A DNA stretch of 64,000 bases from Henckelia pumila. Lineage: Eukaryota > Streptophyta > Magnoliopsida > Lamiales > Gesneriaceae. The notes under the pieces are model-generated. The model was not told the DNA's origin. It did no database searches and was given only the letters and a program-made list of their open reading frames with translations. The stretch lies in the NCBI RefSeq assembly GCF_033568475.1, contig NC_133122.1, positions 142,917,402-142,981,401 of the forward strand. The letters are read 5' to 3'. Shown here piece after piece: positions 33,546 to 63,530 of the stretch. How positions within the stretch are numbered: position 1 is the stretch's first letter; each line of letters opens with the position of its first letter. The translations under genes and the position numbers were made by a program.

Positions 33546-33590
33546 CAATTTTTTTTTTTTTGTGTTAGTTATGTTATTAGATTTATTTAT

Positions 33591-34727: not shown

Positions 34728-37722
34728 TGCAACCACAATTTTACAAGAAATTGAAAGCATATATGTCTTAAAATTGAAAAAGCTAACTTCCTATTTTATC
34801 CTGAAAATATAAAGTTGTAAATTAAACTTTTTTCTTAAATCATGTTTCAATAGATAATAATTGAACTTTTTTCTTAAATCATGTTTCAATAGATATATCA
34901 TATATTAGGGCAAATCGCAAGCCGACCACATATGATTATCAAAAGGGATATGAACTCCATTGTGAAACAAAATAGAAAGAAAGGGCATGCGCTTCCAGAA
35001 ATGTAATTCAAAGCTCCCAACACATTGCCTTCATTAGCATCTTGCACATCTAAAAAAATCTTTCGCTTACTACTTTCAATCAATTTGGTGACATTGATGA
35101 AATTACATATTGTCTCGATTTTTCTTTCCGTCTTTGTAAATTATTGTTTTCTCATTTCGAAAATTTTGATATAAAAAAATTATTGTTCATTTAATTTTGT
35201 GGATATTGCTTTTCCTTTGTAATTATATATATGGCGTCTCTGTAGAAAGTTAAGTCCACTTATCAACATTGACTACTTCACAAGCTACAAAACATTCGGA
35301 CTTGAAAATATTTCACCACCGTATCAATTCACGATTTGCATTAGAGATTAAAAACAAAATGTTCTCCATTATAAAAACATTATATTTGTATCACTGTTTA
35401 TGAACTCGTATTTTTCTTTTCAAGTTTTTGAATCCTTTAAAATAACAAGAGAAAAATATATCATAATTATCTTTCTCACGCATTAAGTTTTAAGTTTTCC
35501 TTTAAAGTTCAAATTCAAATGTAAATAAAGGAATACAAAAATGGGGAAATTGAAGATAAATATGAAATCTCCAATAATAAACTCACTTTTTTTGACGAGA
35601 ATAATAAACTCATTTTTAAGTTCAGTCCTCATATCATACAATGTTATTCTGCAACCCCTATTACATCGAAAACTTATTTTTTATTCTAAAATAAAAAATA
35701 AAAATGTGAAGAATTGACAACAACCAAAGCTTTGTCATAACTGCAGTTGATGTTAATGACTTACATTGGCAATAAATGATGGGTATGATTTGAAGTTGGC
35801 AAGTGTTGAAACAACTATTTGTTTCTTGGAAGATGGTGAACATTGGGTGATTGTTTGGGATTTGATATTTATATTTGTATGTGAGACCGAAGAATTAATG
35901 TATTTTGAATATCATGATTGTAACAAAGACTTGTGTAATTTAATTTTCTTAGCGTGTGTGTTATTAATAAGATGACAATTAATATTAATGATATTTTATC
36001 ATTGTCTAATACGACCAATAATTTTAGTGCTCAAATTTCTTGTCAAATTTGAAATCCAACTTTGGTTTCTCTCATCCAGATCGGTAGATGATATGTGCAG
36101 CCTAGATTAGTTCCAAAGACTCAACTTTGTCAGAATAAAACCACAGAAATTTTATACTTAATACACTCAATACAAATACAATTATCTTTCACCCATGAGA
36201 GTGAGCAAAATTTCGACTAATCCGATATAATCGATAAAAAAATCGATTAATTCAACTGGATTATTTTAAAAGATCGGTTGAACCAAAATAACCGATTTTA
36301 TTTTAAAATATAATTTAATTCTTGTTATGGGGACAAAAGTATGTTTTTGAAAGTTGGTCTTTGAGACATTTAGCAAACATATTCAAGTCCGTGAGTGAGA
36401 AATGAAAAGCACATGAACCATCTCTATTACTTCTTTATCATTTAAAAGACCGTCGGCCATAGCTGGGAAAATACCTAGTGGAGCCTTATCTTATCTGGCT
36501 GAGGGACTTCACAAAGGCACCACTATAGATTTTGTTGATTGCGTTCCTTTATGACTCAGATCTTTGTAAAAAATGTTATGATGTGTTATCGGGGGTATTT
36601 ATCATACAAAAAAAGCCAAGTAAAAATATTTAAAAACTAAAGGAGGTTTTGTAAATAAGATGGTAGAGAACCACAGTTTAATAGTAAATTTAAATCATAA
36701 GCATATGCCAACTTTAGATCAAAATACAAGTTGCTTCGTACGAAACTTTTATGTATATATAATAAACATTACGATAATCTTTCATGCAGTTTCCCAATAC
36801 CTGGAGTTTCCTTCCCTGAAAGATAATAAACAAAACAAGATCATATCGAGATGGGAGTAGAAAGAATCACGCATCCTAGCTTTATTACACATCTCTATCA
36901 ATGTAAATTATTATTATTTTTAGGTACGAATCAGCATTTTCATACTAAACAAGTCCTTGATCAATTTAAAATGTAATTCTAAAGTACTATGAACACCGTT
37001 TCAAGAACTCCGATTGACACGCCATTTGCGTACCAAGTAAAACATGAACTTACAAAATCGTCCATTCTTCGATTAACAAAATCAAATGAAACCACGATCA
37101 GAATTGCGTAAATGGTTAATAATTGCTAACAAGGACAAATTCAATTCAGGGTAAATTTCAAGGCAAAACATATAATTCAATCATGTCCAAAAACAGGAGA
37201 ATGCATAAATTCACTGAAAGTACTAGAAAGATTTAGACAGGTACGTTACTCAATACTCAGGGTTCTAATTATAGGACAACTACGCAATGGTATAAAACAA
37301 GGGGGAGAACGAAGGTGGTGATGATAATAACTCGTGTTACTGACACGACAAATACAAGACAATAAAAACGGAGGAAAAAAAAAATAGTGAAACACCAAAA
37401 AGATATCCTTGTGGACACCTAACGTCTACAATACAGCGGCGATCGAGAAACTTAACGGTAACAGAAGAAAAATTATATGACTTTTGTGGCTCACCTTTAG
37501 CAAACAGAGCCTACCCAACAGAAAATGAAATATTTGGTACATATCTAGACTGTCTAACATAGAGATACTAAAGTAACATCGATCATCCTTCTGCGTTTGG
37601 GAAAGTAGGAGAAAATTATAGATAACAAAGGCTAAAATTAACTCACACCCCAATCCCCGAGCCAACCAAAATGTCAAATAAGAAATACTTGTACAGTTTA
37701 CAGACTTTTTAAAATGCTATTT

Positions 37723-38644
37723 TCAGTTCAAGGTGCTAATGAAGTAATAAAAATATGGACATTCAGTTAATGGAGCCTGATACATGAATCAATGCCTATA
37801 ATTAAATTTCAAAGCAACTATAATACATTTCAGAGGCAACATACGAGACTCATAAAAAGACTAATTACAAGCTCAAAACAGAGCATAATATAAATAACAA
37901 AATCCGAGAAGCAATATAATATGAGAAATAGAAAAGGACGAATGAAAAAAAAAACAACTTTTGCAAAAAAGTGAACTAAAATCTCAATTCAATTAAAGAA
38001 ATCAATTTCATATCGTACCTCTTCAGCTTCTCGAACTTCGGACCATACTTCCTAAAGGGACCCCAAAGAAAAAAATGCAGAAATTATCAGGATACATCTT
38101 TAAGTAGGGGTATTCAGTTCATGAATTCATGACTGTGATTAATTTCAAAACAACTATAATATATTTAAGAGGTAACAGACCAAACACAAAGCAGGAGGAG
38201 CAAAATATAAATAAAAAAATCCTAGGAAGCACATGATGATAATGATGATGATAGAAAAGAAAGAACAAAATCCTAGGAAGCAACTTTTGCAAAAGTAAAT
38301 TAAGATATCAATTCAATCAAAAAAATCAATTTCATATTGTACCTCCTCAGCCTCTCCTCCATCTCTGAATCGTTCAATTCCCTGAAGAAAGCACAAAGAA
38401 ATTAATCTCGGGATACATCTTTAATGTAGGAGATAGACCAAACTCATAAAGACAAATTAAACAGGAGCATAATATATCCTTTTACTGATTATACAAATAT
38501 TGGAAGATTAAATCATGCCATCGATATAAAATTAACAAATAAGATTGCATTTGCATACCTCCTCTCTCTAGGCCTGCAAAGATCGTACATCATATAAATC
38601 ACCACACCCCCGAAGAGCGTCGTAAAATAGGATTTCCAGAACAT
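37723..38644 (-). CDS. Candidate small membrane-protein gene, copy A (four short exons)
   Basis: Predicted exons are 38644..38559, 38381..38343, 38051..38019 and 37735..37723, all with GT-AG borders and the codon split after two bases. They encode 56 aa: a hydrophobic, probably membrane-spanning N-terminus beginning MFWKSYF, then a highly charged Arg/Glu/Lys helix. The family is not recognised. Support comes from copy B, where the same four exons keep length, phase and splice sites and stay free of stops although many amino acids differ. The last exon (13 nt) is the least certain. This was found by eye and transcription is unproven. Confidence 0.45.
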
Positions 38645-38805
38645 CGAACCTTCTCTACCAACATATAAATAATAAATAGAAGAAATATTAATAGAATAAT
38701 AACACATATTGTCGGAAAAATAGAATAATAACACATACTCGGCAAAACAAAGGGCCAGTTAATTGATGTATAATTGATTAATTCAGTTAGGATTTTATAA
38801 ACCAA

Positions 38806-39304: not shown

Positions 39305-39518
39305 TAACTGAACACTCTAAGTTGTTCGTTTTCATGCAGTTGAAGAGTTCAATCTTACATTGAAGATAATATCAAGAGCTAAAGAACATAAGCACACGCC
39401 TCAAGAATATCACATCAATAAAGATCATTCAGTCTAAGAGTTAAGTTGTAATACAAGGGATTGTATTTATTTATCAGTTGACGAGTCTCAATTATAGGCA
39501 ATAGGATAAGTCGTAGCT
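39305..39518. repeat. Segmental repeat unit, copy B, left fragment
   Basis: Matches 31585-31790 of copy A. It ends exactly at the 5' edge of the Athila-like element, and the match resumes at 58190 on the far side. Copy B was therefore one piece before the retrotransposon entered. Confidence 0.8.
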
Positions 39519-41300
39519 GATGAAACTTAAAATTTGTAATTATTTATATGTTAAAAAGTATGTTTTAAAATTAAAGTTTAATTAAAATTATGAAGTTGTA
39601 TTATTTTAGTGTTATGTGTTTATATTTAAATATTTTACTAAAATGTTGTATTTTACGGTTTGCGCAGGTTTGGTAAAAATAAAATTACTCAAGCTACAGA
39701 GGTCATAATGGAGTAATCTCAAATTCAGTAGAATCACAAAAGAGGCATCTTCAACTTTGTAGAAGACAAAAAATTCCAAAAACTTCATTAAGATGATCAA
39801 AATAATCAAACATCAAAATGAAGACAGATTTACTTTTACTATGACCAGCTTGGAGTAAAAATATCATAAGTATTTCATATTTTATCCAAAAGGGGTGAAT
39901 GAGTTGTCAAAACACATCTACAGACAAAGAGCTACGTGTTATATGTTTTGTACAGAAGCAAAATCGGAAGTCTAAGGCATCAAACATGTCAATTAAAGTT
40001 GGGTCAATGTATTGACATTCAAGGAGACAAACACCCACCAACTTTACTATTTCACATTTAATGAGTCTTGGACCCTTGCTCTCATTTGGACTATAAATAG
40101 ATGTGTTGTATAAGATTTGTAGTGTGCAAGAGTGTAGAGAATTCCTCATTTGTAAAATAAATATTGTGTGTGTGAGAATAAAAGTTTGAGTGTGCAAGTT
40201 TCTCAAGTTCAAGTATGAAATTTCTTTTATCCTTATTCTTGAGTTTCATGTTCATGGAAAGCTAAATCTTTTTATGTCAAGGTGAAAAGGTTTCATTGTT
40301 GGTCAAGTAAGATTGTTTATATTTTGTATATTCTTTCCTTTTTTATTTTTATTTTTACTAATTGATCTTTATTTGTAGGTATAATTTTGGATGATTTGTT
40401 GTTATCTATTTAAATCAAATGCTTGGTACCTTGAATGTGGTTACCTTGATTTGTTGTCAAATATGATACAATAAATACTACAATAATTATATACTATAAA
40501 TATATGTATCTATTTATAATAAAGTCATATATATTATTTAGACGATAGCGTGACTCTGTCGGTTGTTCTAAATAATATATTGTGATTTGAACTAACTTTT
40601 ACTTTCCGCAACTAACTTTTACTTTCCGTAACTAACATTTACCTTTCCGCAACTAACATTTACTTTCTCGCATCTAACATTTACTTTTCCGCATCTAACA
40701 TAAAAAAAGCCATATATTTTATTTAGACAATAGCGTGGTTCTGCCGGTTGTTCTAAATGAAATATTGTGATTTGATCTAACATTTAATTTTATGTCAATT
40801 TATATTTATGCATTTATATATATATATTATGGGTACCATGTATTAAATATCGGTTAATCTGATATTATTATAGTGGAAACTATATTATATGATATACTTG
40901 ATTAAATATTTAATTGTTCTTTTATGTTTATATTTATGCATCTATATATATATTATGGGTACCATGTATTAAATATCGATTAATCTGATAATAATATAGT
41001 TGGAACTATATTATATGATATATTTGTATAAATATTTAATTATTCTCTTATGTTTATTTTTATTTTAGTTTTTTTTATTTATTTTTGTTAAACAATCTTA
41101 AATAAACCAACAATGAACCTTTGAAGCCTTGAAAATTTTATAATTTGTGTATTTGAAGTTTTATAATAATATTTTCATCTATAATATATCATTGCTAAAA
41201 TTAAACTTACAACATCCTCTCCGTGGATCGATCTTGTACTCACGAGTATGTTACTTGCAGACAACCTACACTTGGGTGAATTACAATTTAAGTTGTAGCA
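39519..41300 (+). repeat. 5' LTR of the Athila-like element
   Basis: 1782 bp, TG...CA. A TATAAATA box at 40092-40099 and an AATAAA-type signal near 40155 place the U3/R border around 40125. U5 contains a minisatellite (40590-40701). It also holds a doubled block around 'gataGCGTG...CGGTTGTTCTAAAT' (about 40540 and 40730) and a doubled 'TATTATGGGTACCATG' block (about 40825 and 40960). Confidence 0.93.
40590..40701 (+). repeat. 20-21-bp minisatellite in U5 of the LTR
   Basis: About five and a half units of the type AACTAACATTTACTTTCCGC in tandem, of 20, 20, 21, 21 and 21 bp plus a partial unit. The 3' LTR has the same array at about 57482-57593. Confidence 0.85.
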
Positions 41301-41306
41301 AGTTTT

Positions 41307-41324
41307 TGGCGCCGTTGCCGGGGA
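41307..41324 (+). other. Primer-binding site matching tRNA-Asp
   Basis: TGGCGCCGTTGCCGGGGA starts 6 bp after the LTR. It is complementary to the CCA-tailed 3' end of plant tRNA-Asp, the primer usual in Athila elements. Confidence 0.85.
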
Positions 41325-41389
41325 GGTATAAATTAAGTTTAATTTTGTTATTTATGTTATTATGTAAATAGTATGTTGTTTTTAATTTT

Positions 41390-43051
<1,662 letters not shown>

Positions 43052-43052
43052 A

Positions 43053-43699
43053 AAATAAATATTTCATTATTAGATGCTATTAAACAAGTGCCTTCTTATG
43101 CAAAGTTTTTAAAAGATTTATGTACTGTGAAAAGACAATTGCATGTAAAGAAGAAAGCATTCTTAACGGAGCAAGTAAGCTCTATTATTCAAAATAATTC
43201 TACCTTGAAATATAAAGATCCCGGTTGTCCAACAATTTCATGTATTATTGGAAAAAATAAAATTAAAAAAGCTTTGTTAGATTTGGGAGCAAGTGTGAAT
43301 TTAATTCCTTATTCAATTTATGAAAAACTTAAGTTGGGAGATTTAAAACCTACATCTGTTACTCTTTTACTAGCCGATAGGTCAATCAAAATACCTAGAG
43401 GTATTGTAGAAGATGTATTAGTTCAAGTCGATAAATTCATATATCCCGTGGATTTTATTGTCTTGGATACACAACCAATAGAAGTACATAACGAAATTTC
43501 AGTAATTTTGGGACGTCCATTTCTAGCAACTTCAAATGCTTTAATTAATTGTCGAAATGGAATAATGAAATTGTCTTTTGGAAATATGACTTTAGAACTT
43601 AATGTATTCAATTTATATAAACAACCAAGTATTAATGAAGATGAAGATGATAATGCAATAGAAACAATCGTGAAGAAAATATACACCAAGAAAACTTAA
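43053..43699 (+). pseudogene. Athila-like aspartic protease
   Basis: Open from 43088 and in the same frame as the conserved SLLDAIKQVPSYAKFLKDL lead-in just upstream. The catalytic box is DLGAS (near 43277-43291), and the flap and C-terminal ILGRPFL motif (near 43505-43525) are intact. DLGAS instead of DTG/DSG is typical of this lineage. It would cleave the Gag-Pol polyprotein. The stop at 43697-43699 separates it from RT. Confidence 0.85.
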
Positions 43700-43759
43700 A
43701 TCAACAATATGAAGTTTGTTTAGTGGAAATTTTTGATTCAAAAAATGTTGTAAATCAAA

Positions 43760-45360
43760 GTTATTTGAAGAAATTAATGAACTTGAAGAAGTAAAAGAAA
43801 ATGATCATCCAAAACTTGAATTAAAACCCTTACCAATAGAACTAAAATATGCTTTTCTTGGTGAAAATCAAACATATCCTATTGTAATATCTTCTACCCT
43901 CTTACCAAAACAAGAAGAATATTTAATAACACTACTTAAAAAACACAAAAATGCAATTGGATGGACTTTGCAAGATATAAAAGATATAAATCCTTTAATC
44001 TGCACACATAGAATTCACTTGGAAGAAAATGCTAAAACATATCAACAACCACAAAGAAGATTAAATCCACACATGAAAGAAGTTGTTAAAAATGAAGTTT
44101 TAAAACTATTAGATGCCGGAATTATTTATCCAATTTCGGATAGTAAATGGGTAAGTTCAACACAAGTAGTACCAAAAAAATCAGGCATCACTGTTATAAA
44201 AAATGAAAAGGGGGAATTATTACAAGCTAGGATTTCATCTAGTTGGCGTATGCGCATTGATTATAGAAAATTAAATGATGCAACTAGAAAAGATCACTTT
44301 TCGTTACCATTTTTAGATCAAATTTTAGAGAAAATGGCAGGTAATCCTTATTATTGTTTTCTTGATGGGTATTCGGGATATTATCAAATACCAATATCAT
44401 TAGAAGATCAAGAAAAAACTACTTTCACTTGTCCGTTCGGAACTTTTTCTTTTAAAAGAATGTCATTTGGTTTATGTAATGCCCCGGATACTTTTCAAAG
44501 ATGCATGCTAAGTATTTTTAGTGACATGATTGAAGAATTTGTGAAAGTTTTTATGGATGATATAATTGTTTTTGGAAACTCATTTGAAAACTGTCTTAAA
44601 AATTTGGAAGAAGTTTTAAAAAGATGTGAAGAAAAAAATCTTGTTTTAAATTGGGAAAAATGTCAATACATGGTTACATCCGGAATTGTGTTAGGGCATG
44701 TCATATCTGAAAAAAGAATTGAAGTTGATAAAGCTAAGGTTGATGTTATTGCTAATTTACCATCACCAAACACGATCAAAGAAATTCGATCATTTTTGGG
44801 TCATGCGGGATTTATAGAAGATTTATAAATATTTTTAGCATAATATCGAAACCAATTTCAAATCTTTTAACAAAAGATGCACAATTTGAATGGACTCAAG
44901 AATGTGAAACTGCTTCTAAAAAGATAATTAATCTTTTAACTACATCACCTATTTTACAACCTCCTGATTGGTTTTTACCATTTGAATTAATGTGTGATGC
45001 AAGTGATTATGCTGTAGGAGCCGTGCTAGGACAAAGAAAAGAAGGTAAACCCTATGTGATCTATTATGCAAGTAGAACCTTAAATAGTGCTCAAATCAAT
45101 TATTCAACAACTGAAAAAGAATTACTTTCAGTAGTGTTTGCATTAGATAAATTTCGATCCTATTTAATTGGTTCTACTACTATTGTTTATACTGATCATT
45201 CTGCCATAAAATATTTATCAAATAAACAAGATGCTAAGCCGAGATTAATAAGATGGATTTTATTGTTACAAGAATTTGATCTTGTAATAAAAGATAAAAA
45301 AGGAAAAGAAAATGTAGTAGTCGATCATTTATCAAGAATAATTTCTGAATCATCTCAAAA
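43760..45360 (+). pseudogene. Athila-like reverse transcriptase and RNase H (broken)
   Basis: RT runs from about 43968 with WRMRIDYRKLNDATRKD (near 44245-44295), the FTCPFGTF and FGLCNAPDTFQRC blocks, and the FMDD catalytic box (near 44549-44562). A frameshift near 44808-44828, just after the FLGHAGF motif, breaks the frame. RNase H continues in another frame from about 44870, with [13 protein letters not shown] (near 44990-45030) and TDHSAIKYL (near 45192-45220). All catalytic motifs are recognisable. The domain order and wording are those of Athila/Tat elements. Confidence 0.88.
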
Positions 45361-45574
45361 TGAAATACCAATAAATGAAAATTTTTCGGATGATCAACTA
45401 TTTTATGCTACTACTATGCCTTGGTTTGCTAATATTGTAAATTTTCTTGTGACAAATAAAATGCCTTCTCATTGGAGTTCACAAGATAAAAATATATTCT
45501 TGAAAGAGGTCAAAAAATTTTATTGGGATGATCCTTATTTGTTTAAGTATTGTCCTGATCAAATTTTTTGACGA

Positions 45575-46704
45575 TGCATACCTAACAATGAGGTAAGTAG
45601 TGTCATTAAATTTTTTCATTCTGAGGCATGTGGAGGTCATTTTTCGTCAAAACAAATAGCTGCAAAAATCTTTCAATGTGGATTTTATTGGCCTTCTTTA
45701 TTCAAAGATACACATTCATTTTGCAAATCTTGTGAAAATTGTGAGAAAATGGGTTCAATTTCAAAGCGAAACATGATTCCTTTAAATCCAATCATGATTA
45801 TTGAAATATTTGACAGTTGGGGAATAGATTTTATGGGTCCATTTCCATTATCTTTTGGATTCATTTATATTTTAGTGGCTGTCGATTATGTTTCAAAATG
45901 GATTGAAGCAATTGCATGTAGAACTAATGATCATAAAGTTGTGATAAAATTTTTGAAAGAAAATATTTTTAGTCGATTTGGAATACCTAGAGCTATAATC
46001 AGTGATGGGGAAGTCATTTTATAAATAAATCATTTTCTTCGTTGTTAAGAAAATATGGTATTACACATAAAGTTTCTACTCCATATCACCCTCAAACGAA
46101 TGGTCAGGTTGAACTTGCAAATAAAGAAATAAAACAAATTTTGGAAAAAACAGTCAATCCAAATCGAAAAGATTGGTCTTTAAGATTAAGTGATGCATTA
46201 TGGGCATATAGAACTGCATTTAAAACATTATTTGGGAAGTCACCATATAGATTAGTTTTTGAAAAGCATTGTCATCTACCTTTTGAAATTGAACATAAAG
46301 CTTATTGGGCAATTAAAGCGTTTAATACTAATTTAGATGATGCATCTAAATTAAGAAAATTGCAATTAAATGAACTAGAAGAATTAAGAAATGATGCATA
46401 TGAAAATGTAAAGATTTATAAAGATAAAACAAAAGCATTTCATGATAAAAATATTATGAGAAAATCTTTTGAAATCAGATAAAAAGTTTTACTTTATAAT
46501 TCTCGCTTGCATTTGTTTTCAGGAAAACTTAGATCACGATGGTTTGGACCATTTATTGTTAAATTTGTCTATCCTCATGGTGCTATTGATGTTGAAAATC
46601 CTAAAAATAATAATGTATTTAAATTTAATGGGCAAAGACTTAAACCGTTTATAAAAAATGAAGTTCTTAATGAAGAGTTTATGCCTTTATATGATCCAAC
46701 TTAA
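45575..46704 (+). pseudogene. Athila-like integrase (broken), no chromodomain
   Basis: The HHCC zinc domain (about 45620-45755) follows a stop at 45569. The DDE core has WGIDFMGP (near 45820-45840), a second Asp near 46000 just before a stop at 46022, and [10 protein letters not shown] (near 46085-46115) carrying the catalytic Glu. A further stop lies at about 46480, and the C-terminal part resumes to 46704. There is no chromodomain, unlike the nested chromovirus fragments. Integrase would join element DNA to the host; this copy cannot encode an intact enzyme. Confidence 0.85.
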
Positions 46705-46721
46705 TTGTTACTTATATTTTC

Positions 46722-46736
46722 ATTTTATTTTTGCAG
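46722..46736 (+). other. Candidate splice acceptor upstream of the extra ORFs
   Basis: A T-rich tract ending TTATTTTTGCAG lies in the gap between integrase and the 183-aa ORF. Genes 3' of pol in env-like-bearing plant elements can be expressed from spliced RNA, so this is a reasonable acceptor. It is unproven. Confidence 0.3.
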
Positions 46737-46819
46737 AATTGAGTTCACTTCCCGGTTAAGTGGCGGATAACGGTACTCCGTGACTACTTTCAGTCGGTTT
46801 TATTTCAATTTCCCAAAAT

Positions 46820-46864
<45 letters not shown>

Positions 46865-46866
<2 letters not shown>

Positions 46867-47416
46867 GGATGAAGCTATCAAAAAACTAGGTAAATATTTT
46901 CCATCTATTTCTAAAAAAGTTCTGAGAATGATTTATGAAGGCAGATGTGAAAGATTGAGAATGCTTATGCAAAAAGGAATCCCGGAGGATATTCGTCTTA
47001 TAATTGAAGCCAAGGTTCGATTAGGTGGTGAAGTTCCAAAATTCTTACTTGTTCGAAATATGTCTAGACTAGGAAAAAACACCTATGCGAAGAAAAAAAT
47101 GGCTAAAAGGTTAGATGTTTGTCATAATAGTGCCAGATGGACTTGTAATAGACAATGCAGATCTTTGGGATATGTTTCCACAAATAGAGAAGATAAAATT
47201 GATTTCATTAAGAATGAGCTGAGTAAAGAGTCATTAGATGATATCTCATTGACTCTTGAGACGCATTCTAATGGAGATGTTCAAGGTCAACTTCTCCATT
47301 TATGGAAACTATTCCAAGCGCAGCGTCATGGTAATGGTCTTGGGAATCTGACTAAAAAAGACCCTATTTGCCAATTTATAAGAAAATTGGATGGTAAGCC
47401 AACCCTCGACTCATAA
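46865..47416 (+). CDS. Extra retrotransposon ORF: basic Cys-containing protein resembling carlavirus nucleic-acid-binding proteins
   Basis: An intact 183-aa frame from ATG 46865, directly after a long TA microsatellite. It has three parts. An N-terminal helix region contains the phrase IPEDIRLIIEAK (39-50). A Lys/Arg-rich stretch, NTYAKKKMAKRLDVC, leads to Cys86, Cys94 and Cys98. Then comes a C-x3-G-x2-S-x-N...FI segment (98-115), and the tail is acidic and less structured. The order resembles the cysteine-rich proteins of carlaviruses, which are zinc-finger nucleic-acid binders reported to suppress RNA silencing or act in the nucleus. That homology is inferred by eye from motif order and could be convergence. 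It is open while gag and pol are broken. It shares the reading frame of the LOG ORF that follows, with only TAA 47414-47416 between them. Confidence 0.6.
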
Positions 47417-47602
47417 ATATTGAAGGAACACTGTGAGCCACAATCACATCACTGTTTATACGCATGCATGTTATTATTATATATTATTGTTTTTTATTAT
47501 TTTCATCATTTTGTTCACATCTGTATTCCTAGTTTTGTCTTATTCCTTGTTTTCCTTATAAAATCACTCAACTCTCTCTATATTTTTGAAAAGAAAAAAA
47601 AA

Positions 47603-48244
47603 ATGACAGGATCTTCTTCACAAAAATTGAAAAATATTTGTGTCTTTTGTGGTTCTAATACTGGAAAGAATGAAATATTTGTTGATGCAGCAATTAATCT
47701 TGGAAAAAAGTTAGCAGAGAGAAAAATTCACTTGGTTTACGGAGGAGGCAATATTGGTTTAATGAGATCTATTTCAACAACAGCTCATGTTGGAGGTAGT
47801 CAGGTTTTGGGTATTATTCCTACAGCTTTAGCTGAAGGAAACATTACAGGTGTTACGGTTGGGGAAGAATTGAAAGTTTCATCAATGTACGAGAGAATAA
47901 CTAAAATGATAGAAAATTATGATGCTTTTATTGCCTTACCTGGTGGTTTTGGTACTTTAGAAGAAATTTTTCATGTTGTTTCTTGGGCACAACTTAATAT
48001 CCATAATAAACCTGTTGGCTTGTTGAATATCAATAACTATTATGATGGTTTGTTGACTTTTCTTGATGTAGCCGTGGAACAAAATTTCATTTCAGAAAAT
48101 TCACGAAGGATGCTCATCTCTGCTTTGAATGAAGACCAATTAATTGATGATCTCCAAGCTTTTGTTCATCAACCAGATTCGGCTATAACAAAGATCAATT
48201 GGTCTCAACCAACTAGTAAGAAAAGTGTAACGCCCAAATTTTAA
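47603..48244 (+). CDS. LOG-type cytokinin riboside 5'-monophosphate phosphoribohydrolase inside the retrotransposon, C-terminus cut
   Basis: The frame gives 213 aa from ATG 47603, with a good A-rich leader before it. The Rossmann fold starts NICVFCGSN (11-19). The nucleotide-binding loop is VYGGGNIGLM (45-54). The LOG signature PGGFGTLEE (113-121) is complete, with Glu121, and Arg98 lies in the MYER motif. LOG enzymes release active cytokinin bases from their riboside monophosphates in one step in the cytosol or nucleus. Differences from common LOGs are GLMR for GLMG and MYERI for MH-x-RK. Plant LOG genes normally have several introns; none is seen here, so this looks like a captured cDNA. 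The last six codons (SVTPKF) derive from the nested chromovirus LTR that starts at 48226. The frame is open upstream to 47417, adding a hydrophobic stretch if used (ATG 47468). Confidence 0.88.
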   Translation: MTGSSSQKLKNICVFCGSNTGKNEIFVDAAINLGKKLAERKIHLVYGGGNIGLMRSISTTAHVGGSQVLGIIPTALAEGNITGVTVGEELKVSSMYERITKMIENYDAFIALPGGFGTLEEIFHVVSWAQLNIHNKPVGLLNINNYYDGLLTFLDVAVEQNFISENSRRMLISALNEDQLIDDLQAFVHQPDSAITKINWSQPTSKKSVTPKF

Positions 48245-50175
48245 CGCCCAGAATTATTTAATTTTAATCCGAGAATATTTAATTTGGGAATATTTGGAGT
48301 TTTGATTTAAATTCTAATATTCTTAAATTATTTAAGATTGAAATTGAATGAAATGAGAAGCTGAGGACCAAATTGCAATTTTTGAATAGTTGAGGGGCTA
48401 AAGTGAAATTATGAGTAAACTTATCATAAATTGAAGGGATTATTCAGCATGCACTTGTGATTCTTTCCAAAGTCATCAGATTTCCAAGCCAAGGAAGAAC
48501 TGAGAGCAACAGAGAATTCTTCCAAGCTTTTCTTCATCTTTCAATCCACGTATCTTGAGCTACGGTTATCCGTTTTCAATTCCGAAAGATGTTCTGGAAT
48601 CCTCGCAACGAAAACTTCGATTTGATGTAAGTTTTATATTTGTTCATCAGGGTTTGGTCATTCGAAAATGACAGATATCAGACTTGTATATGATTTGATG
48701 TTGTTGAGCTTCTATCTTGTGTAATCTTGAAGTTGGGTTGAGGATTGATTGTTATATCATGTTCTTATGAATTCCCAGCTATGATTCCATCCATATACCT
48801 GCTGATATGTTGGTTTTGAAGCTTCAACAGCTGATATACATGTTAGAAATGTTGTAGATATGTTCGGAATCGCCGAGTTATACCGATATGCCATCGAACT
48901 CTTGATTTGAAGCAATTTGCTATTGTTCTTGAACTTAGATGTTGCTGGATTATTAGCTGATGCTTCCTTGGGTTGTATGATATGTTTTCAGTGCATAAAC
49001 AGGGCATGTAAACTCGAGAACGTCGACTCCGAAACCGATAGAAGATAGAACAAGGTTGGTAGAGTTTGCCTTGAAGTCTTGTTGAAGTTTGGATTGATTT
49101 TGAGCAGATTTTGAGATGAGTTTGGTGATTGATCTTGTACAGATTTGGACAAGTGAGAAGACATCCTAAACATCACGTTTGAAAGGTAAAAGTGAAATAC
49201 TATTTGATTGGTATTACAACTCGAGATGGTTTGTATCGAGTTTTCCCTAAATCACATACTTGTTTGCTTAATTGCTCTTATGTGCTTTATTTTGAGTTGT
49301 TGAATAAGTTCTTGATATAATGAATGCTTTGATGATGATATATGTTGCATTCATCTTGAAGACTTATTCCTTGATTTTGAAATGAACGAAAACGTTCGAA
49401 TAGACGATTTGAGGAATTGTATATGTATGGCCTGGGTGGTTGTTTTAGCCTAGCGTCTGATTTGCATATATGATTGCTTCAAAGTCTAGAGAAAAAAGAT
49501 AAGTAACCCCACCTCGATTGGGAGAGTCGGTGGATTAGTTATGATATCTACTTCTTGGGATCCCAACCGACGAATGACGAAATGAACCTTGTTTTGAAAA
49601 CATGCATTGTATTTACTTTTATATCATGATTTTGATATATGTTTGTTATGCATGTTTAGTCGCTTTTACTGGGAAATCTATTTCTCACCGGAGTTATCCG
49701 GCTATTGTTTTGTTGTATGTGTCATTGCAATAGGAGGGAGTGGATCCGGACAAAATCGGAATTGAAGAACAAGGGATGAGAGAATATAGCGTGATGATTC
49801 GAGTTAGATGAGTTGTGTGAGCTGTCGATGTTTGTATTGAGTTCCAAACATGATTATGTTCTAGCTACTTGTTTTATAACTTGTAGATGATCTAGTTGTT
49901 GTCTTGTTGATGTTTATAGGATTTGAGATATGATGTAAATCTTTAAGACAACATGATGTATCTTGATCTTGTTATATAGCAATGTTTCTTGCATATTTTG
50001 GAAAGTCTTGATTATTATGAACGTAAGGCTTGTTATGATCTAATTGTATCCATTGTATAGCATGTTAGAATGCATGTTAGATGTTGCTATGAATTAGATC
50101 ATGAATAAATCCTTGTATGAGTTGATCTTGGATGAAAATGTAGGTATGGACTCGTTTTTGACAGCAACTTTGTCT
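48226..50175 (+). repeat. Chromovirus LTR, plus orientation, truncated at its 3' end
   Basis: Starts TGTAACGCCC. The terminal phrase TAACGCCCA is doubled within the first 25 bp. It is close to the reverse complement of 51436-53367 over about 1.95 kb. The last ~320 bp of the LTR are missing, and the sequence switches to minus-strand gag at about 50176. Confidence 0.85.
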
Positions 50176-50687
50176 TCAATATTCAAGTTTCCCTGCCTCA
50201 GGTTAGCAAATTCGGCACCCTTGTCTTTACGATAAGATACCGGAAAGAAACGTTGATAAAACTCTGTCTTGAAGAAATTCCAGGTCAAAACAGTTCCTCT
50301 ACGCTCCAGAGATTTCTTTGTTGTGAACCACCAGCTTTTAGCAACCTCATGCAACTGATGACCAACAAGTCTGACTCTTCGCTCATCACCGTAGTCCAGT
50401 GAATCAAATAAAATCTCCATGTCATCAAGCAATCCTTCACATTCAACTGCATTCTCTGTACCTTTCAGGGTTGGCGGCTTGTAGGATTGAAAATGTTTCA
50501 ACAATGTTTCCATTGGAGTTGCAGTCATATCATTCATGTCTCGAGATGTACTTCCTTGTTCATTACTCGGGACTGCAGCTGTAGGCACTATCGATGTTAC
50601 CACTGTCGGTGGAGTATAAACTGTCTGTTCTGGTAGAGAAATAGGAACATGGGGTCTCAGAGGAGGTCGTCCTGGTCTTCGAGACAT
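50176..50687 (-). pseudogene. Chromovirus gag N-terminal fragment
   Basis: Starts at ATG 50687 (MSRRPGRPPLRP). A Pro/Thr-rich leader is followed by the start of a retrotransposon gag domain (FQSYKPPTLKGTE, then LVGHQLHEVAKSWW). At about 50175 it runs into LTR sequence, so the open frame's last ~27 codons (to 50094) are LTR-derived. Capsid C-terminus, zinc knuckle and pol are absent here. Confidence 0.8.
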
Positions 50688-51103
50688 ATCTGATTATCAA
50701 AATGGTTAGAATACCAAATCATCAAATTAATCTCAGTCCTCCTCTGATCATCTTACCTCTGATCAGGACTCGGTTCTGATTCAATCTTAAATAAATAATC
50801 ACAATCTTCAAATAAAACATGCTTCCAATCAATTCAGATAATCAGGTAGCATGTCATAGTTCATCAGGATACATGCCTTTATCCATTCAGATATTTCAAT
50901 AAGCATGCATCTTTAATCATCGTAATTATACTTTCAAATAAATAAAATACAACATCTTGTAATAAATACTTGAAAGTAAATCATGCTAGCATTTAAAACA
51001 TGTAATTCAATCATGTAATTAATCGTAGCATAATCACATAAATAAGTAAGGCAGAAGACTCGATCTATCCCACTCACTGTCTATCTAAGTCCAGAATTTT
51101 CTT
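50688..51103 (-). other. Chromovirus 5' untranslated leader
   Basis: Non-coding sequence between the minus-strand primer-binding site and the gag start. It is AT-rich with no further feature seen. Confidence 0.5.
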
Positions 51104-51115
51104 GCTCTGATACCA
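51104..51115 (-). other. Chromovirus primer-binding site (tRNA-iMet)
   Basis: On the minus strand TGGTATCAGAGC follows the LTR end after two bases (GA). It is complementary to initiator tRNA-Met, so the LTR at 51118-53367 acts as a 5' LTR with respect to the gag fragment. Confidence 0.85.
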
Positions 51116-51117
51116 TC

Positions 51118-53367
51118 TGTTGTGATGACCCGAGTTCTAATCTCTCATAATCAATTAATCAACAATAGTAGACAAACATCAATGTCTAAACAAAAGAATT
51201 TTTTTTTTAAAATCGGAGCACCTCGCTCGATCGGTGAAAAACCACCGATCGAGCGAGCTCCTCAGCTCAAACTCTCGGGTGCAGATAATAGTGGTCTCGC
51301 TCGATCTGCAAAACTTTGCAGATCGAGCGCGCCCTCTGAGTTCAACTTTCTGTCCAGCAAAAAGAATGCCTCGCTCGATCGGTCATGTTCTACCGATCGA
51401 GCGAGCACAGAAACAGAAGAAAAACATCAGACAAAGTTGCTGTCAAAAACGAGTCCATACCTACATTTTCATCCAAGATCAACTCATACAAGGATTTATT
51501 CATGATCTAATTCATAGCAACATCTAACATGCATTCTAACATGCTATACAATGGATACAATTAGATCATAACAAGCCTTACGATCATAATAATCAAGACT
51601 TTCCAAAATATGCAAGAAACATTGCTATATAACAAGATCAAGATACATCATGTTGTCTTAAGGATTTACATCATATCTCAAATCCTATAAACATCAACAA
51701 GACAACAACTAGATCATCTACAAGTTATAAAACAAGTAGCTAGAACATAATCATGTTTGAAACTCAATACAAACATCGACAGCTCACACAACTCATCTAA
51801 CTCGGATCATCACGCTATATTCTCTCATCCCTTGTTCTTCAATTCCGATTTTGTCCAGATCCACTCCCTCCTATTGCAATGACACATACAACAAAACAAT
51901 AGCCGGATAACTCCGGTGAAAAATAGATTTCCCAGTAAAAGCGACTAAACATGCATAACAAACATATATCAAAATCATGATATAAAAGTAAATACAATGC
52001 ATGTTTTCAAAACAAGGTTCATTTCGTCATTCGTCGGTTGGGATCCCGAGAAGTAGATATCATAACTAATCCACCGACTCTCCCAATTGAGGTGGGGTTA
52101 CTTATCTTTCTTCTCTAGACTTTGAAGCAATCATATATGCAAATCAGACGCTAGGCTAAAACAACCACCCAGGCCATACATATACAATTCTTCAAATCGT
52201 CTATTCGAACGTTTTCGTTCATTTCAAAATCAAGAAATAAGTTTTCAAGATGAATGCAACATATATCATCATCAAAGCATTCATTATATCAAGAACTTAT
52301 TCAACAACTCTAAATAAAGCACATAAGAGCAATTAAGCAAACAAATATGTGATTTAGGGGAAACTCGATACAAACCATCTCGAGTTGTAATCCCAATCAA
52401 ATAGTAGTCCACTTTTACCTTTCAAACGTGATGTTTAGGATGTCTTCTCACTTGTCCAAATCTGTACAAGATCAATCACCAAACTCATCTCAAAATCTGC
52501 TCAAAATCAATCCAAACTTCAACAAGACTTCAAGGCAAATGCTACCAACCTTGTTCTATCTTCTATCGGTTTCGGAGTCGACGTTCTTGAGTTTACATTC
52601 CCTGTTTATGCGCTGAAAACATAGCATACAACCCAAGGAAGCATCAGCTAATAATCCAGCAACATCTAAGTTCAAGAACAATAGCAAATTGCTTCAAATC
52701 AAGAGTTCGACGGCATATCGGTATAACTCGGCGATTCCGAACATATCTACAACATTTCTAACATGTATATCAGCTGTTGAAGCTTCAAAACCAACATATC
52801 AGCAGGTATATGGATCGAATCATAGCTGGGAATTCATAAGAACATGATATAACAATCAATCCTCAACCCAACTTCAAGATTACACAAGATAGAAGCTCAA
52901 CAACATCAAATCATATACAAGTCTGATATCAGTCATTTTCGAATGACCAAACCCTGATGAACAAATATAAAACTTACATCAAATCGAAGGTTTCATTGCG
53001 AGGATTTCAGAACATCTTTCGGAATTGAAAACGGATAATCGTAGCTCAAGATACGTGGATTGAAAGATGAAGAAAAGCTTGGAAGAATTCTCTGTTGCTC
53101 TCGGTTCTTCCTTGGCTTGGAAATCTGATGACTTTGGAAAGAATCACACATGCATGCTGAATAATCCCTTCAATTTCTGATAAGTTTACTCATAATTGCA
53201 CTTTAGCCCCTCAACTATTCAAAAATTTCAATTTGGTCCTCAGCTTCTCATTTCATTCAATTTTAATCCTAAATAATTTAAGAATATTAGAATTTAAATC
53301 AAAACTCCAAATATTCCCAAATTAAATATTCTCGGATTAAAATTAAATAATTCTGGGCATTACAATT
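51118..53367 (-). repeat. Chromovirus LTR, minus orientation, full length
   Basis: 2.25 kb. On the minus strand it starts TGTAATGCCC at 53367 and ends ACAACA at 51118. On one side it is followed by a primer site and gag; on the other it is preceded by a polypurine tract and the end of pol. It is thus both a 5' and a 3' LTR, the product expected of tandem or recombined elements. Three CG-rich hairpins lie near its 3' end. Confidence 0.88.
51222..51405. repeat. Three consecutive CGATCGAGCG hairpins near the LTR 3' end
   Basis: Stems are 51222-51235 with 51244-51257, 51298-51312 with 51315-51329, and 51370-51383 with 51392-51405. All are perfect, 14-15 bp, with short loops. Stems 1 and 3 are identical (CTCGCTCGATCGGT). 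Stem 2 has the same outer half and a different inner half (CGCTCGATCTGCAAA). They stand out from AT-rich surroundings. Confidence 0.9.
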
Positions 53368-53607
53368 CTCCCCCACTAAGAAACGATTTCGTCCTCGAAA
53401 TCTCAAGTAATATCAACAGATCATATAACAATTATCAGATAACAGAAAACTAAAGGAGACTCACATCAATGAAACATCTCTGGAAATCGTTGCATCATAT
53501 CTGATTCAGTCTTCCAAGTCGCTTCTTCAATACCATGACGACTCCACTGGACTTGGTTTCCTGCCTCCTTAGATATCAAGGGCACAGAGGTACGACCTTA
53601 CTTGAAC
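53368..53607 (-). pseudogene. Chromovirus pol 3' end with chromodomain and polypurine tract
   Basis: On the minus strand the last ~47 codons of pol end at the stop 53466-53468. They read like a chromodomain C-terminus (GNQVQWSRHGIEEATWKTE). A spacer then leads to the polypurine tract AGTGGGGGAGAAT directly before the LTR start at 53367. Everything upstream in pol is missing; at about 53608 the sequence switches to an LTR in plus orientation. Confidence 0.8.
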
Positions 53608-54969
53608 AGATTTAGGATTAAAATTGAATAAATTGAGAATCTGGGGACTGAATTGCAATTATTTAATAGTTGAGGGGCTAAAGTGCAATTATGAGTAAAC
53701 TTATCAGAAATTGAAGGGATTATTCAGCATGCACGTGTGATTCTTTCCAAAGTCATCAGATTTCCAAGACAAGGAAGAACCGAGAGCAACAGAGAATTCT
53801 TCCAAGCTTTTCTTCATCTTTCAATCCACGTATCTTGAGCTACGGTTATCCGTTTTCGATTCCGAAAGATGTTCTGGAATTCTTGCAACGAAACCTTCAA
53901 TTTGATGTAAGTTTTATATTTGTTCATCAGGGTTTGGTCATTCGAAAATGACAGATATCAGACTTGTATATGATTTGATGTTGTTGAGCTTCTATCTTGT
54001 GTAATCTTGAAGTTGGGTTGAGGATTGATTGTTATATCATGTTCTTATGAATTCCCAGCTATGATTCGATCCATATACCTGCTGATATGTTGGTTTTGAA
54101 GTTTCAACAGCTGATATACATGTTAGAAATGTTGTAGATATGTTCGGAATTGCCGAGTTATACCGATATGCCGTCGAACTCTTGATTTGAAGCAATTTGC
54201 TATTGTTCTTGAACTTAGATGTTGCTGGATTATTAGCTGATGCTTCCTTGGGTTGTATGCTATGTTTTCAGCGCATAAACAGGGCATGTAAACTCGAGAA
54301 CGTCGACTCCGAAACCGTTAGAAGATAGAATAAGGTTGGTAGAGTTTTCCTTGAAGTCTTGTTGAAGTTTGGATTGATTTTGAGCAGATTTTGAGATGAG
54401 TTTGGTGATTGATCTTGTACAGATTTGGACAAGTGAGAAGACATCCTAAACATCACGTTTTAAAGGTAAAAGTGGACTACTATTTGATTGGGATTACAAC
54501 TCGAGATGGTTTGAATCGAGTTCCCCTAAATCACATACTTGTTTGCTTAATTGCTCTTATGTGCTTTATTTTGAGTTGTTGAATAAGTTCTTGATATAAT
54601 GAATGCTTTGATGATGATATATGTTGCATTCATCTTGAAGACTTATTCCTTGATTTTGAAATGAACGAAAACGTTCGAATAGACGATTTGAGGAATTGTA
54701 TATGTATGGCTTGGGTGGTTGTTTTAACCTAGCGTCTGATTTTCATATATGATTGCTTCAAAGTCTAGAGAAGAAAGATAAGTAACCCCACCTCGATTGG
54801 GAGAGTCGGTGGATTAGTTATGATATCTACTTCTCGGGATCCCAACCGACGAATGACGAAATGAACCTTGTTTTGAAAACATGCATTGTATTTACTTTTA
54901 TATCATGATTTTGATATATGTTTTTATTAAATATTCTCGGATCAAAATTAAATAATTCTGGGCGTTACA
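53608..54969 (+). repeat. Chromovirus LTR fragment (+) fused to an LTR tip (-)
   Basis: 53608-54923 matches the plus-oriented LTR at about 48330-49640, lacking its first ~100 bp and its 3' third. At about 54924 it joins ~45 bp that are the inverted LTR start, ending GGGCGTTACA. This is the third LTR copy in the block. Confidence 0.8.
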
Positions 54970-56408
54970 ATTAGAAAACTGGATCATTGATTCAACATAT
55001 CACGAAATGGTTTGTGTTTGTTCCTCATCTTCAATAAATTCCAAGTGATATCTCTTTCATCATGTACTCTTTATTTTTCTTTTAAAAAAAATTTCATATT
55101 CAGGTTTGGGGGAGGGTTTATTTAAATTTTTTTTTAAAAATTTTAAAAAAATATTTCTATAATAATATATATTTTTCCTTTTTCAATGGCAGAGTAAGGA
55201 GTCAAAAACTCCTGACACGCATTAGTTTTTATTTATCATATTATCACAATAGATTAGATTTTAATATTCCGTATATATTTAAATTGCAAACTACTAAAAA
55301 AATGAAGTTTTTTTGTATAGATTTTTATTTATTCTTTTTTTTTTATCAATTTAATAGAAAAAATATAATTTGATGGGATATAAGTTATAAATAATATATA
55401 ATTGTGTGTTTTCAAATAACATATTTTCTAAAACTTTTATGAGTATATAATTAAAGTGATATTGATTGAATGAATAATAACATGTATAATTGAGGGAATT
55501 AATTTGTAAAAGTGCAATATTTACTCACATAAATTTTGTGAGTGAGAGGTGAGAATTGAGAAAATAACTTATAAGTTTTTATTGATTATTAAAAAATGGT
55601 TGATTACTAGATTAAACCCATTTAAAAAAAAATATTGTGCATATGAAAATTGGCTGCAAAGATTGTTTGAAGTTTGATTGTAAAGATGTAGAGTATTAAT
55701 ATCTCTACTATAATTATCAATGTAATAGATTTACCTCATAAAAAATAAACAAATAAATAAACTTTGAAAAAAAAAATGTTACATTTTCAAAGTTTATTGG
55801 AGGTATTTGGTTATGTAAAAACAATTTTGCAGCCAAGCAAAAAAGAGAAAAATAGAAAAAAAATAAAATAAAAACAAAAATAAAAACAAAATGGGTTTAT
55901 TTTTTGTAAATTATCTTATCTTATTTTCAATATTAGGTTATTTGATTGTCTGCTTTACATATTAACCATTTTCAATGAGTGTATAATTTTCTTCCAACTC
56001 TATGAGTGAAAACCAGTTATATATAAAAAACAAATATCATAACCCGAGAGAATATGGAGTTAAGACTTTTACATTAAAATTCCTGAAGATATACATGTTA
56101 CGAAAAGGATTTCTATTATCATTTTGATTATATTATTATCAAAGTTTTTAGAAAATATTTATATAAAAAAATTATATATATTTAATATTTTGATATTGTG
56201 TGAAATATATATGTATACCCCATCCAATTATATATTAATATATTAGTTGATATCAAGATTTATAAATAAACATATGATCTTCTTACAAGTATGTTTTAAA
56301 ATTTCAAAGTTTGCAAATTTGAATATATATATTAAGAAATAAAAATCTAACTTTTGATTTTATGAAATTTTATTACTAAGGGACTAGTAATTAGCCGGTT
56401 TGGGGGTG
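54970..56408 (+). other. 3' untranslated region of the Athila-like element with polypurine tract
   Basis: The first ~80 bp could continue the original LOG frame to a stop near 55050, followed by AT-rich non-coding DNA. A G-rich tract (GGTTTGGGGGAGGG) at about 55102-55117 resembles a second polypurine tract. The functional one, TTTGGGGGTG, ends at 56408 against the 3' LTR. Confidence 0.6.
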
Positions 56409-58189
56409 TGATGAAACTTAAAATTTGTAATTATTTATATGTTAAAAAGTGTGTTTTAAAATTAAAGTTTAATTAAAATTATGAAGTTGTATTATTTTAG
56501 TGTTATGTGTTTATATTTAAATGTTTTACTAAAATATTGTATTTTACGGTTTGCGCAGGTTTGGTAAAAATAAAATTACTAAAGTTACAGAGATCATAAT
56601 GGAGTAATCTCAAATCCTGTAGAATTACAAAAGAGGCATCTTCAACTTTGTAGAAGACAAAAAATTCCAAAAACTTCATTAAGATGATCAAAATAATCAA
56701 ACATCAAAATGGAGACAGATTTACTTTTACTATGACCAATTTGGAGTAAAAATATCATAAGTATTTCATATTTTATCCAAAAGGGGTGAATGAGATGTCA
56801 AAACACATCTACAGACAAAGGGCTACGTGTTATATGTTTTGTGCAGAAGCAAAATCGGAAGTCTAAGGCATAAAAAATGCCAATTAATGTTGGGTCAATG
56901 TATTGACATTCAAGGAGACAAGCACCCACCAACTTTACTATTCCAAATTTAATGAGTCTTGGACCCTTGCTCTCATTTGGCCTATAAATAGATGTGTTGT
57001 ATAAGGTTTGTAGTGTGCAAGAGTGTAGAGAATTCCTCATTTGTAAAATAAATATTGTGCGTGTGAGAATAAAAGTTTGAGTGTGCAAGTTTCTCAAGTT
57101 CAAGTATGAAATTTCTTTTATCCTTATTCTTGAGTTTCATGTTCATGGAAAGCTAAATCTTTTTATGTCAAGGTGAAAAGGTTTCATTGTTGGTCAAGTA
57201 AGATTGTTTATATTTTGTATATTCTTTCCTTTTCTATTTTTATTTTTACTAATTGATCTTTATTTGTAGATATAATTTTGGATGATTTGTTGTTATCTAT
57301 TTACATCAAATGCTTGGTACCTTGAATGTGGTTACCTTGATTTGTTGTCAAATATGATAAAATAAATACTACAATAATTATATACTATAAATATATGTAT
57401 CTATTTATAATAAAGTCATATATATTATTTAGACGATAGCGTGACTCTGTCGGTTGTTCTAAATAATATATTGTGATTTGAACTAACTTTTACTTTCCGC
57501 AACTAACTTTTACTTTCCGCAACTAATATTTACCTTTTCGCAACTAACATTTACTTTCTCGCATCTAACATTTACTTTTCCGCATCTAACATAAAAAAGG
57601 TCATATATTTTATTTAGACAATAGCGTGGCTCTGCCGGTTGTTCTAAATGAAATATTGTGATTTGATCTAACATTTAATTTTATGTCAATTTATATTTAT
57701 GCATTTATATATATATTATGGGTACCATGTATTAAATATCGATTAATCTGATATTAATATAGTGGAAACTATATTATATGATATACTTGTTTAAATATTT
57801 AATTGTTCTTTTATGTTTATATTTATGCATCTATATATATATTATGGGTACCATGTTTTAAATATCGGTTAATCTGATAATAATATAGTGAAAACTATAT
57901 TATATGATATATTTGTATAAATATTTAATTATTCTCTTATTTTTATTTTTATTTTAGTTTCTTTTATTTATTTTTGTTAAGCAATCTTAAATAAACCAAC
58001 AATGAACCTTTGAAACCTTGACAATTTTATAATTTGTGTATTTGAAGTTTTATAATAATATTTTCATCTATAATATATCATTGCTAAAATTAAACTTACA
58101 GCATCCTCTCCGTGGATCGATCTCGTACTCACGAGTATATTACTTGCAGACAACCTACACTTGGGTGAATTACAATTTAAGTTGTAGCA
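56409..58189 (+). repeat. 3' LTR of the Athila-like element
   Basis: 1781 bp, TGATG...TAGCA, collinear with the 5' LTR. It includes TATAAATA (56983-56990), the U5 minisatellite and the doubled U5 blocks. About 22 differences from the 5' LTR were counted by eye in the first ~560 bp. Confidence 0.93.
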
Positions 58190-60149: not shown

Positions 60150-60884
60150 TTATTTATGTTGATATTACACACACATATATATGTATAATTTTTTTGTTTA
60201 GTGAAGTTAGAGAGTTTGTTATACAATACATACCACAAGATTTGTGCAAGCTTGTGGAAGATTTGAATTAACAACAAAAGTAGGCAACATTGGTTTGATG
60301 GCTTCCTCCATCTTTATGTTATATCTTTACATACTGCAACGTTAAATTGTAAATTTTTTTAATAAAACTAGTCAAATGTTAAGAATTGACAACAACCAAA
60401 GCTTTGTCATAAATGCAGTCGATGTTAATGATGTGCTTGCCAATACATTGAAAATAAATAATGGATATGATTTGAAGTTGGTAAGAGTTGAAACAACTAT
60501 TTGTTTCTTGGAAGATGATGAACATTGAGTGATTGTTTGAGATTTGATATTTATCTTGATCTGCGAGACTGAAGAATTGATGTATATGTTTGAATATCAT
60601 GATGTTGTAACTAAGACGTGTGTAGTTTAATTTTCTTAGCGTGATATAATTATACTCGTATTATATATTAATAAGATGATAATTAATATTAATGCTATTT
60701 TATCCTTTTCTTATACGATCATTAATTTTAGTGCTCAAATTTCTTGCACAAATTTGGAATCCAACTTTTGTTTCTCTCATCTAGGTCGGTAGATGATATG
60801 TGCAGCCTAGATTAGTTCCAAAGGCTCAAGTTTGTTAGAATAAAACCACATAAATTTTATCTCTTAATACACTCATACAAATAA

Positions 60885-61023
60885 AATTATCTTTCATCCA
60901 TGGGCAGGCGCAGATCCAGAATCTTAATTTTGGGGGGCCATATACTATGTGACGATAATATGCGACAGTGACGTAGCTACAAACTTGTGAGATGAGCATT
61001 AATTTCTAAAAATTTGTATTTGG

Positions 61024-61078
<55 letters not shown>

Positions 61079-61410
61079 GTTTAAAAATTTTCGAAGGTCA
61101 TAGAATTCCGTTACTACTGGCGAAATCAAAGCTTAACTTAATAAAAACCTTAATTTTGTGTCATTTTGCGCTTTACTTTTAAATTTTAATTTAAAATTCA
61201 GAAAATTTATTTATTTTACTAATTTTATAGATCTTTTTGAATACGAAAAGAATGAGTGAAAATAAAATTTAAAAAAATTTAAGTTTAGATTTATGAGAGA
61301 TGCTCATGCATAATATCATAATACATAAAAAGACAAAAGTTTAATCAACTGAAAAATTTGAGTTCAATAATAAGGATTGAAATTTGTCCAATTAAAATAA
61401 AATATTAGAT
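60885..61410 (+). repeat. Arm 1 of a ~480-bp inverted repeat
   Basis: Contains ATCCATGGGCAGGCGCAGAT, then TTTTGGGGGGCCATATACTA, an ATA microsatellite (61026-61077) and AT-rich sequence. It is the reverse complement of 63531-64000 apart from substitutions and microsatellite length. The GGCGCAGATCCAG-like phrase resembles termini of plant hAT-type elements, but the match extends outward into ordinary copy-B sequence. Confidence 0.8.
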
Positions 61411-63440: not shown

Positions 63441-63530
63441 CGAACCTTCTCTACCAACATATAAATAATAAATAGAAGAAAAATTAATAGAATAATAACA
63501 CATATTGTCGGAAAAATAGAATAAATAATT

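Follow-up and report, generated by a model that had tools for sequence, protein, structure and literature searches.

In a stretch of 64,000 nucleotides from Henckelia pumila (contig NC_133122.1, positions 142,917,402 to 142,981,401 of the forward strand), called the window here and numbered from its first letter, we found a broken and interrupted copy of a Ty3/gypsy retrotransposon that carries, between pol and the 3' LTR, a pair of accessory genes, one for a viral nucleic-acid-binding protein-like (NABP-like) protein and one derived from LOG. There is little doubt about this anatomy, and if it is taken together with the mechanism that we propose for it, a host-manipulation cassette with a LOG of changed substrate, we consider the chances of the whole to be about even.

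The element (39518-58189, plus strand) is a broken copy of the Ty3/gypsy type, possessing the LTRs, TSD, PBS and polypurine tract (PPT) of an LTR retrotransposon as well as the gypsy order protease, reverse transcriptase, RNase H and integrase. Its 5' LTR (39518-41300) and 3' LTR (56409-58189) are flanked by the TSD GTAGC (left copy 39513-39517, right copy 58190-58194); the PBS TGGCGCCGTTGCCGGGGA is located at 41307-41324 and the PPT at 56399-56408 (both plus strand). The two LTRs are 97.1% identical over 1781 columns (K2P 0.029), which at the substitution rates for LTR dating of 1.3e-8 to 7e-9 corresponds to an age of roughly 1.1-2.1 My. The coding region (41390-46703) consists of pieces lying in different frames and comprises a broken gag and protease region (41390-43699, with PF13650 at 43088-43699) followed by a broken pol (43968-46703) with reverse transcriptase, RNase H and integrase (PF00078, PF17917 and PF00665) and an in-frame stop at 46480-46482. 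Just 3' of the pol stop a T-rich run ending in TTTTTGCAG (46707-46736, plus strand) is, by its pattern alone, a possible 3' splice acceptor. A long AAT microsatellite in the gag region (41464-41600) encodes a poly-Asn stretch. The outer borders of the element are supported by another copy of the repeat that flanks it (about 31577-33585), which is free of the element and thus represents a paralogous empty site, the left TSD corresponding to a position near 31780. The element is inserted in one copy of a duplication of several kb, the other copy being without it, and the duplicated pieces (31577-33585 with 58192-59951 and 35641-38728 with 60316-63524) are 82-87% identical. Minisatellite-like arrays are located near 32400-33500 and 58800-59950, and a degenerate tandem array with copies 61-66% alike occupies 24777-25844. 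A reading of the sequence alone that preceded this work (the sequence-only reading) had called the element Athila-like, a tentative label based on the PBS and the layout. The PBS may be of the tRNA-Asp type, and the ATHILA gag Pfam domain gave no match in the two scanned pieces of the broken gag.

The LOG gene in the window is real. Its frame has no introns and contains PGGFGTLEE, Arg98 and Glu121, hence the PGGxGTxxE motif and the catalytic Arg and Glu of type Ia LOG, just as the sequence-only reading had stated, and TIGR00730 (3.5e-49; 166.9 bits, above the cut-off of 96.35), PF03641 (1.2e-36) and the fold model all agree with this. The predicted structure (pLDDT 87.5) is a Rossmann fold with a TM of 0.96 to 2a33, normalised by target length, and Arabidopsis At2g37210 is the closest relative with a solved structure. 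With the NCBIfam equivalog NF058542 the protein reached 115.2 bits, below the cut-off of 300, under which true plant LOGs may also fall. The bounds 47417..48244 that had been assigned to the gene had to be corrected at both ends. The open frame holding LOG extends from 47420 to 48244 and the alignment of relatives begins at the ATG at 47603, leaving 47417-47602 as a spacer upstream of it. At the other end a nested insertion of LTR-type sequence (48226-54972, borders accurate to a few bases) splits the last LOG codons, and since the apparent stop at 48242-48244 falls within this insertion it is not the native one. The native part of the LOG-derived ORF therefore comprises 47603-48225 (plus strand; right border accurate to a few bases), and the remaining part of its 3' end, recognised by comparison with the tails of the relatives, lies past the insertion at 54973-54990 (plus strand). 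Upstream of the ATG the sequence TATAAAA (47557-47563, plus strand) followed by a CTCTCTCT stretch has the pattern of a possible internal promoter. The nested insertion itself appears to be compound or rearranged, because LTR-like copies (97-98% alike) occur within it in direct as well as inverted order, together with a minus-strand ORF (50094-50687) that looks gag-like by eye. LOG had also been placed between integrase and the 3' LTR of an element with LTRs, TSD and PBS. All of these are present and LOG does lie 3' of integrase, but it does not adjoin it, as a 183-aa ORF (46865-47416) separates the two, and the 3' LTR begins 8 kb beyond the apparent LOG stop.

This ORF (plus strand) was overlooked in the sequence-only reading and is a second accessory gene beside LOG. 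Judged from homologue profiles (140 homologues at E<=1e-3), it appears to be a member of a family with matches to viral nucleic-acid-binding proteins: PF05515 and PF01623 each match 13 of the 15 aligned relatives (E<=0.01), and a Cx2Cx4Cx3C finger is intact in 98 of 120 relatives (the best 120 of the 140). The family thereby resembles the carlavirus-type cysteine-rich/nucleic-acid-binding proteins, from which it differs in its length of about 182 aa and in being located within an LTR element; moreover, the protein of the window matches neither of the two models and has lost the second Cys of the finger, which is thus not intact. Its predicted structure is poor (pLDDT 47). Viral proteins of the NABP kind have been described as silencing suppressors, one of them being also a transcription factor that causes hyperplasia (PMC12172455). 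A search of viral contigs with the NABP-like alignment gave 0 loci; the LOG alignment gave one (L001, IMGVR_UViG_2784746789_000006, 37 kb) with 45% identity.

To take a closer look at the relatives of the window LOG, we used the best 120 of 7886 matches, from which 4 were dropped by length (116 listed relatives), and, starting from Arabidopsis LOG3, a separate search, from whose best 120 of 7990 matches 6 were dropped by length (114 listed host LOGs, mainly of the LOG1/LOG3 type plus one LOG8). From bacteria, 72 LOGs were readable among 80 loci kept. A first tree with the window LOG, 34 of the 116 listed relatives and 16 of 39 host representatives united the element-type LOGs in a single clade (35 rows, support 99/90). 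The clade was recovered (16 rows, support 100/100) in a second, midpoint-rooted tree of the window LOG, 15 relatives, nine host LOGs plus LOG8 and 25 bacterial rows. A tree against host LOGs had been proposed in the sequence-only reading, and it indeed places the window LOG in one well-supported clade beside the sampled plant LOGs. In the midpoint-rooted tree the plant LOGs including the element clade are separated from the 25 bacterial rows (98/92); this grouping is in line with a plant LOG having been captured long ago, and a bacterial origin is not favoured. Named sources among the matches listed are Xanthoceras, Diplodiscus, Reevesia, Populus, Paulownia, Primulina, Parasponia and Melia, presumably spanning several eudicot orders, and scattered copies are present with 16 rows from Reevesia and nine from Diplodiscus in the best 120 of 7886.

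The occurrence of LOG in further copies and species, also suggested earlier as a check, is supported by gene models from Rhamnella that repeat the gene order of the window. In P0183 the C-terminal part of an integrase (75% over 79 residues compared with the window) is fused to an NABP-like protein (59% over 174), and in P0195 an NABP-like protein (55% over 184) is fused to LOG sequence (51% over 110). The latter LOG is itself shortened and has a damaged PGG motif, and where the pocket is altered in most of the clade (two positions, see below) it has Ile and Gln. The order integrase-NABP and NABP-LOG therefore points to a module of the lineage that is not private to the window copy. Gypsy consensuses from Citrus sinensis and C. 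clementina have moreover been described to contain LOG (YgdH) domains, and a Populus trichocarpa gypsy YgdH domain appears when the copy filter of that study is not applied (PMC9289625); the same paper cites Steinbauerova et al. 2011 for elements with a YgdH domain. Thus, the statement that no case of LOG in a retroelement had been described does not hold. From the idea of a captured plant LOG, what stands is a plant-type coding sequence in a gypsy element, carried by a lineage as seen from the clade, Rhamnella and Citrus/Populus; selection on this particular copy does not follow.

One departure from ordinary LOGs concerns the base and prenyl pocket. In the LOG from C. glutamicum, Met96, His97, Lys100, Glu125 and Trp129 form the proposed prenyl pocket, Met96, Lys100 and Glu121 belong to the adenine site, and replacing any AMP-binding or catalytic residue other than Ser19 by Ala almost abolishes activity (PMC4979012). 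The prenyl-pocket residues correspond to positions 95, 96, 99, 124 and 128 in the numbering of the window, where Met/His/Lys/Glu/Trp reads M/Y/I/H/W, and three of five are changed. In 112 of the 116 listed relatives, position 99 is occupied by L, M or I and position 124 by H, Q or R, the two changes always occurring together, whereas the double change of Lys99 and Glu124 is present in 0/114 listed host LOGs, all 114 of which possess His, Lys and Glu at 96, 99 and 124. In the bacterial LOGs Lys and Glu are each found in 72/72 and all three residues (HKE) in 69/72. The four listed relatives that keep HKE are P0076, P0105, P0106 and P0115, and the two of them that are present in the trees branch outside the remaining clade. 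The catalytic core is retained: Arg98 in 111/116 and Glu121 in 115/116 listed relatives, with 18/116 missing at least one residue of the eight-residue catalytic set. From the pocket, His is kept in 35/116, Met in 100/116 and Trp in 115/116, and prenyl binding may therefore survive. At position 99 the 112 listed relatives show L, M or I alone and no polar residue, a limitation that argues for constraint and against decay, so that the joint change looks like a constrained shift in specificity. With the pocket rewired in 112/116 listed relatives, ordinary cytokinin activation becomes doubtful. The designation cytokinin-activating, which the gene had received at first, is doubtful likewise, with three of five pocket residues changed in the window LOG and two of them in 112/116 listed relatives.

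A second peculiarity is the C-terminal tail. The last 22 residues contain a basic cluster and an LxLxL motif in 95 of the 116 listed relatives, the remainder having the basic cluster only (12/116), LxLxL only (4/116) or neither (5/116). Host LOG tails show both motifs in 0/114 and the basic cluster in 1/114 of those listed. The four nearest listed relatives in the subclade of the window are without LxLxL. By pattern alone, the basic cluster is reminiscent of a nuclear signal and LxLxL of an EAR-type motif.

The mechanism that we favour is a host-manipulation cassette in which the enzyme derived from LOG would use a changed substrate and, in most members, act in the nucleus. LOG would have been acquired long ago from the mRNA of a plant and then reshaped by selection into a gene of the element. 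Both proteins, probably produced from separate or spliced RNAs and encoded where env would be located, between pol and the 3' LTR, would have the host as their target. For the NABP-like protein this would mean dampening RNA silencing or changing transcription. The LOG-derived protein would be nuclear, its nucleotide substrate being different or broader, and its LxLxL tail, where present, might contact corepressors. A bolder reading, to which we give clearly less than even chances, sees the pair in the env position as a cassette of a viral-type NABP and a captured plant LOG that became a nuclear enzyme whose nucleotide specificity is new, maybe for purine signals other than cytokinins (e.g. immune nucleotide signals or products of RNA decay). 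Alternatively, the element LOG could still activate cytokinin and, perhaps together with a growth-promoting NABP-like protein, raise its local level and thereby the division or activity of the meristem cells in which the element transposes. The retained catalytic residues (Arg in 111/116, Glu in 115/116 listed relatives) and the LOG fold of the predicted structure are compatible with this, and the viral NABP-type protein inducing hyperplasia (PMC12172455) lends it some colour. However, Lys99 and Glu124 are replaced in 112/116 listed relatives, the C. glutamicum counterpart Lys100 is part of both the adenine and the proposed prenyl site, and the Ala exchanges at the AMP-binding and catalytic residues other than Ser19 leave that enzyme with hardly any activity (PMC4979012). 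We consider this explanation possible but rather doubtful, and ordinary cytokinin release would be less likely than a changed substrate.

Instead of acting on a new substrate, the protein might also be a pseudo-enzyme. It would then bind nucleotides as a mere scaffold, while corepressors or chromatin factors recruited by its basic and LxLxL tail would change silencing or defence genes. The altered pocket and the presence of both tail motifs in 95/116 listed relatives compared to 0/114 listed host LOGs would fit such a role, which we nevertheless regard as unlikely, as the conservation of Arg (111/116) and Glu (115/116) goes beyond the needs of a pure scaffold and the nearest listed relatives of the window do not have LxLxL.

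Whether selection has acted on the copy in the window is a different question. According to the sequence-only reading, the LOG frame had stayed open during the decay of gag and pol. A hand count gave about 8 breaks in the 5.3 kb of gag-pol, some of which may be native ORF borders, and at that rate the chance of zero breaks is 0.38 for LOG and 0.16 for LOG together with its NABP-like neighbour. The intact frame is thus within chance and was rejected as a sign of selection. Changes unique to the window exceed those of the nearest listed relative in 7/7 relative-rate comparisons, with uncorrected p values of 0.06-0.45 for LOG (four outgroups) and 0.0009-0.26 for the NABP-like protein (three outgroups). 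As only one is below 0.05, the mostly non-significant test was likewise not accepted as proof of decay. The window LOG also has GLM followed by R, common to 7/116 listed relatives. Overall, the window copy is probably dead or non-functional, and the LOG family in its entirety seems to be under constraint at the protein level, as judged from the aligned relatives. One could conclude that LOG and its neighbour are passengers, carried without benefit and slowly lost, in agreement with the odd changes in both window genes (GLM then R and the lost finger Cys), the open frames that do not exceed chance and the excess of window-unique changes in all seven comparisons. This seems very unlikely to us, since the proteins have persisted at full length in several plant families, together with their constrained new residues and tails, and p<0.05 was reached in only one of the seven comparisons. 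That this copy captured a host LOG once and recently, the clade being composed of ordinary divergent host LOG genes, is hardly credible: although the element linkage of most of the 116 listed relatives is deduced from the clade and is direct for the window and Rhamnella, the Rhamnella integrase-NABP and NABP-LOG gene models, the gypsy LOGs reported in Citrus and Populus (PMC9289625), the scattered rows in Reevesia and Diplodiscus and a rewired pocket and tail missing from the 114 listed host LOGs all speak against it.

LOG in LTR elements is already known; what looks new here is its pairing with an NABP-like gene, the joint pocket change and the basic plus LxLxL tail, for none of which we found a report in the open-access literature that we followed up (subscription papers being outside its scope). 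The Citrus and Populus elements share a LOG-family gene in a plant Ty3/gypsy element with the copy described here and would probably belong to one lineage with it, but they are described by the presence of the domain, and a viral-type neighbour, a pocket change or a tail is not part of that description in the section that reports the domain (PMC9289625). Arabidopsis LOG3 and LOG8 (type Ia) have the fold, PGGxGTxxE, the catalytic Arg and Glu and the pocket Met and Trp in common with the window LOG, but possess His/Lys/Glu in the pocket instead of Tyr/Ile/His; the window LOG is intronless and element-borne, and its relatives have an additional C-terminal tail. A similar example of a host-related enzyme gene kept by a gypsy lineage is the AlkB-type RNA demethylase of orchid elements, although that enzyme is a different one and its activity has been shown in vitro, whereas the LOG reported here is known from sequence (PMC9289625).

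The extra genes of plant LTR elements are mostly unexplained. The LOG case offers a hormone-pathway enzyme with a coordinated, conserved change in the active site, paired with a protein resembling a family of silencing suppressors, and if functional it would show plant retrotransposons to be equipped, as viruses are, with genes directed against the host. The element LOG is a protein that can be assayed, and the prediction, a changed substrate, is clear. Some of the genes annotated as LOG in Populus, Xanthoceras, Reevesia and other plants may belong to elements and not produce cytokinin, a point of importance for surveys of the LOG gene family. The Xanthoceras gene models P0002, P0003 and P0015 contain doubled or fused LOG segments and are possibly element copies that were merged by gene prediction.
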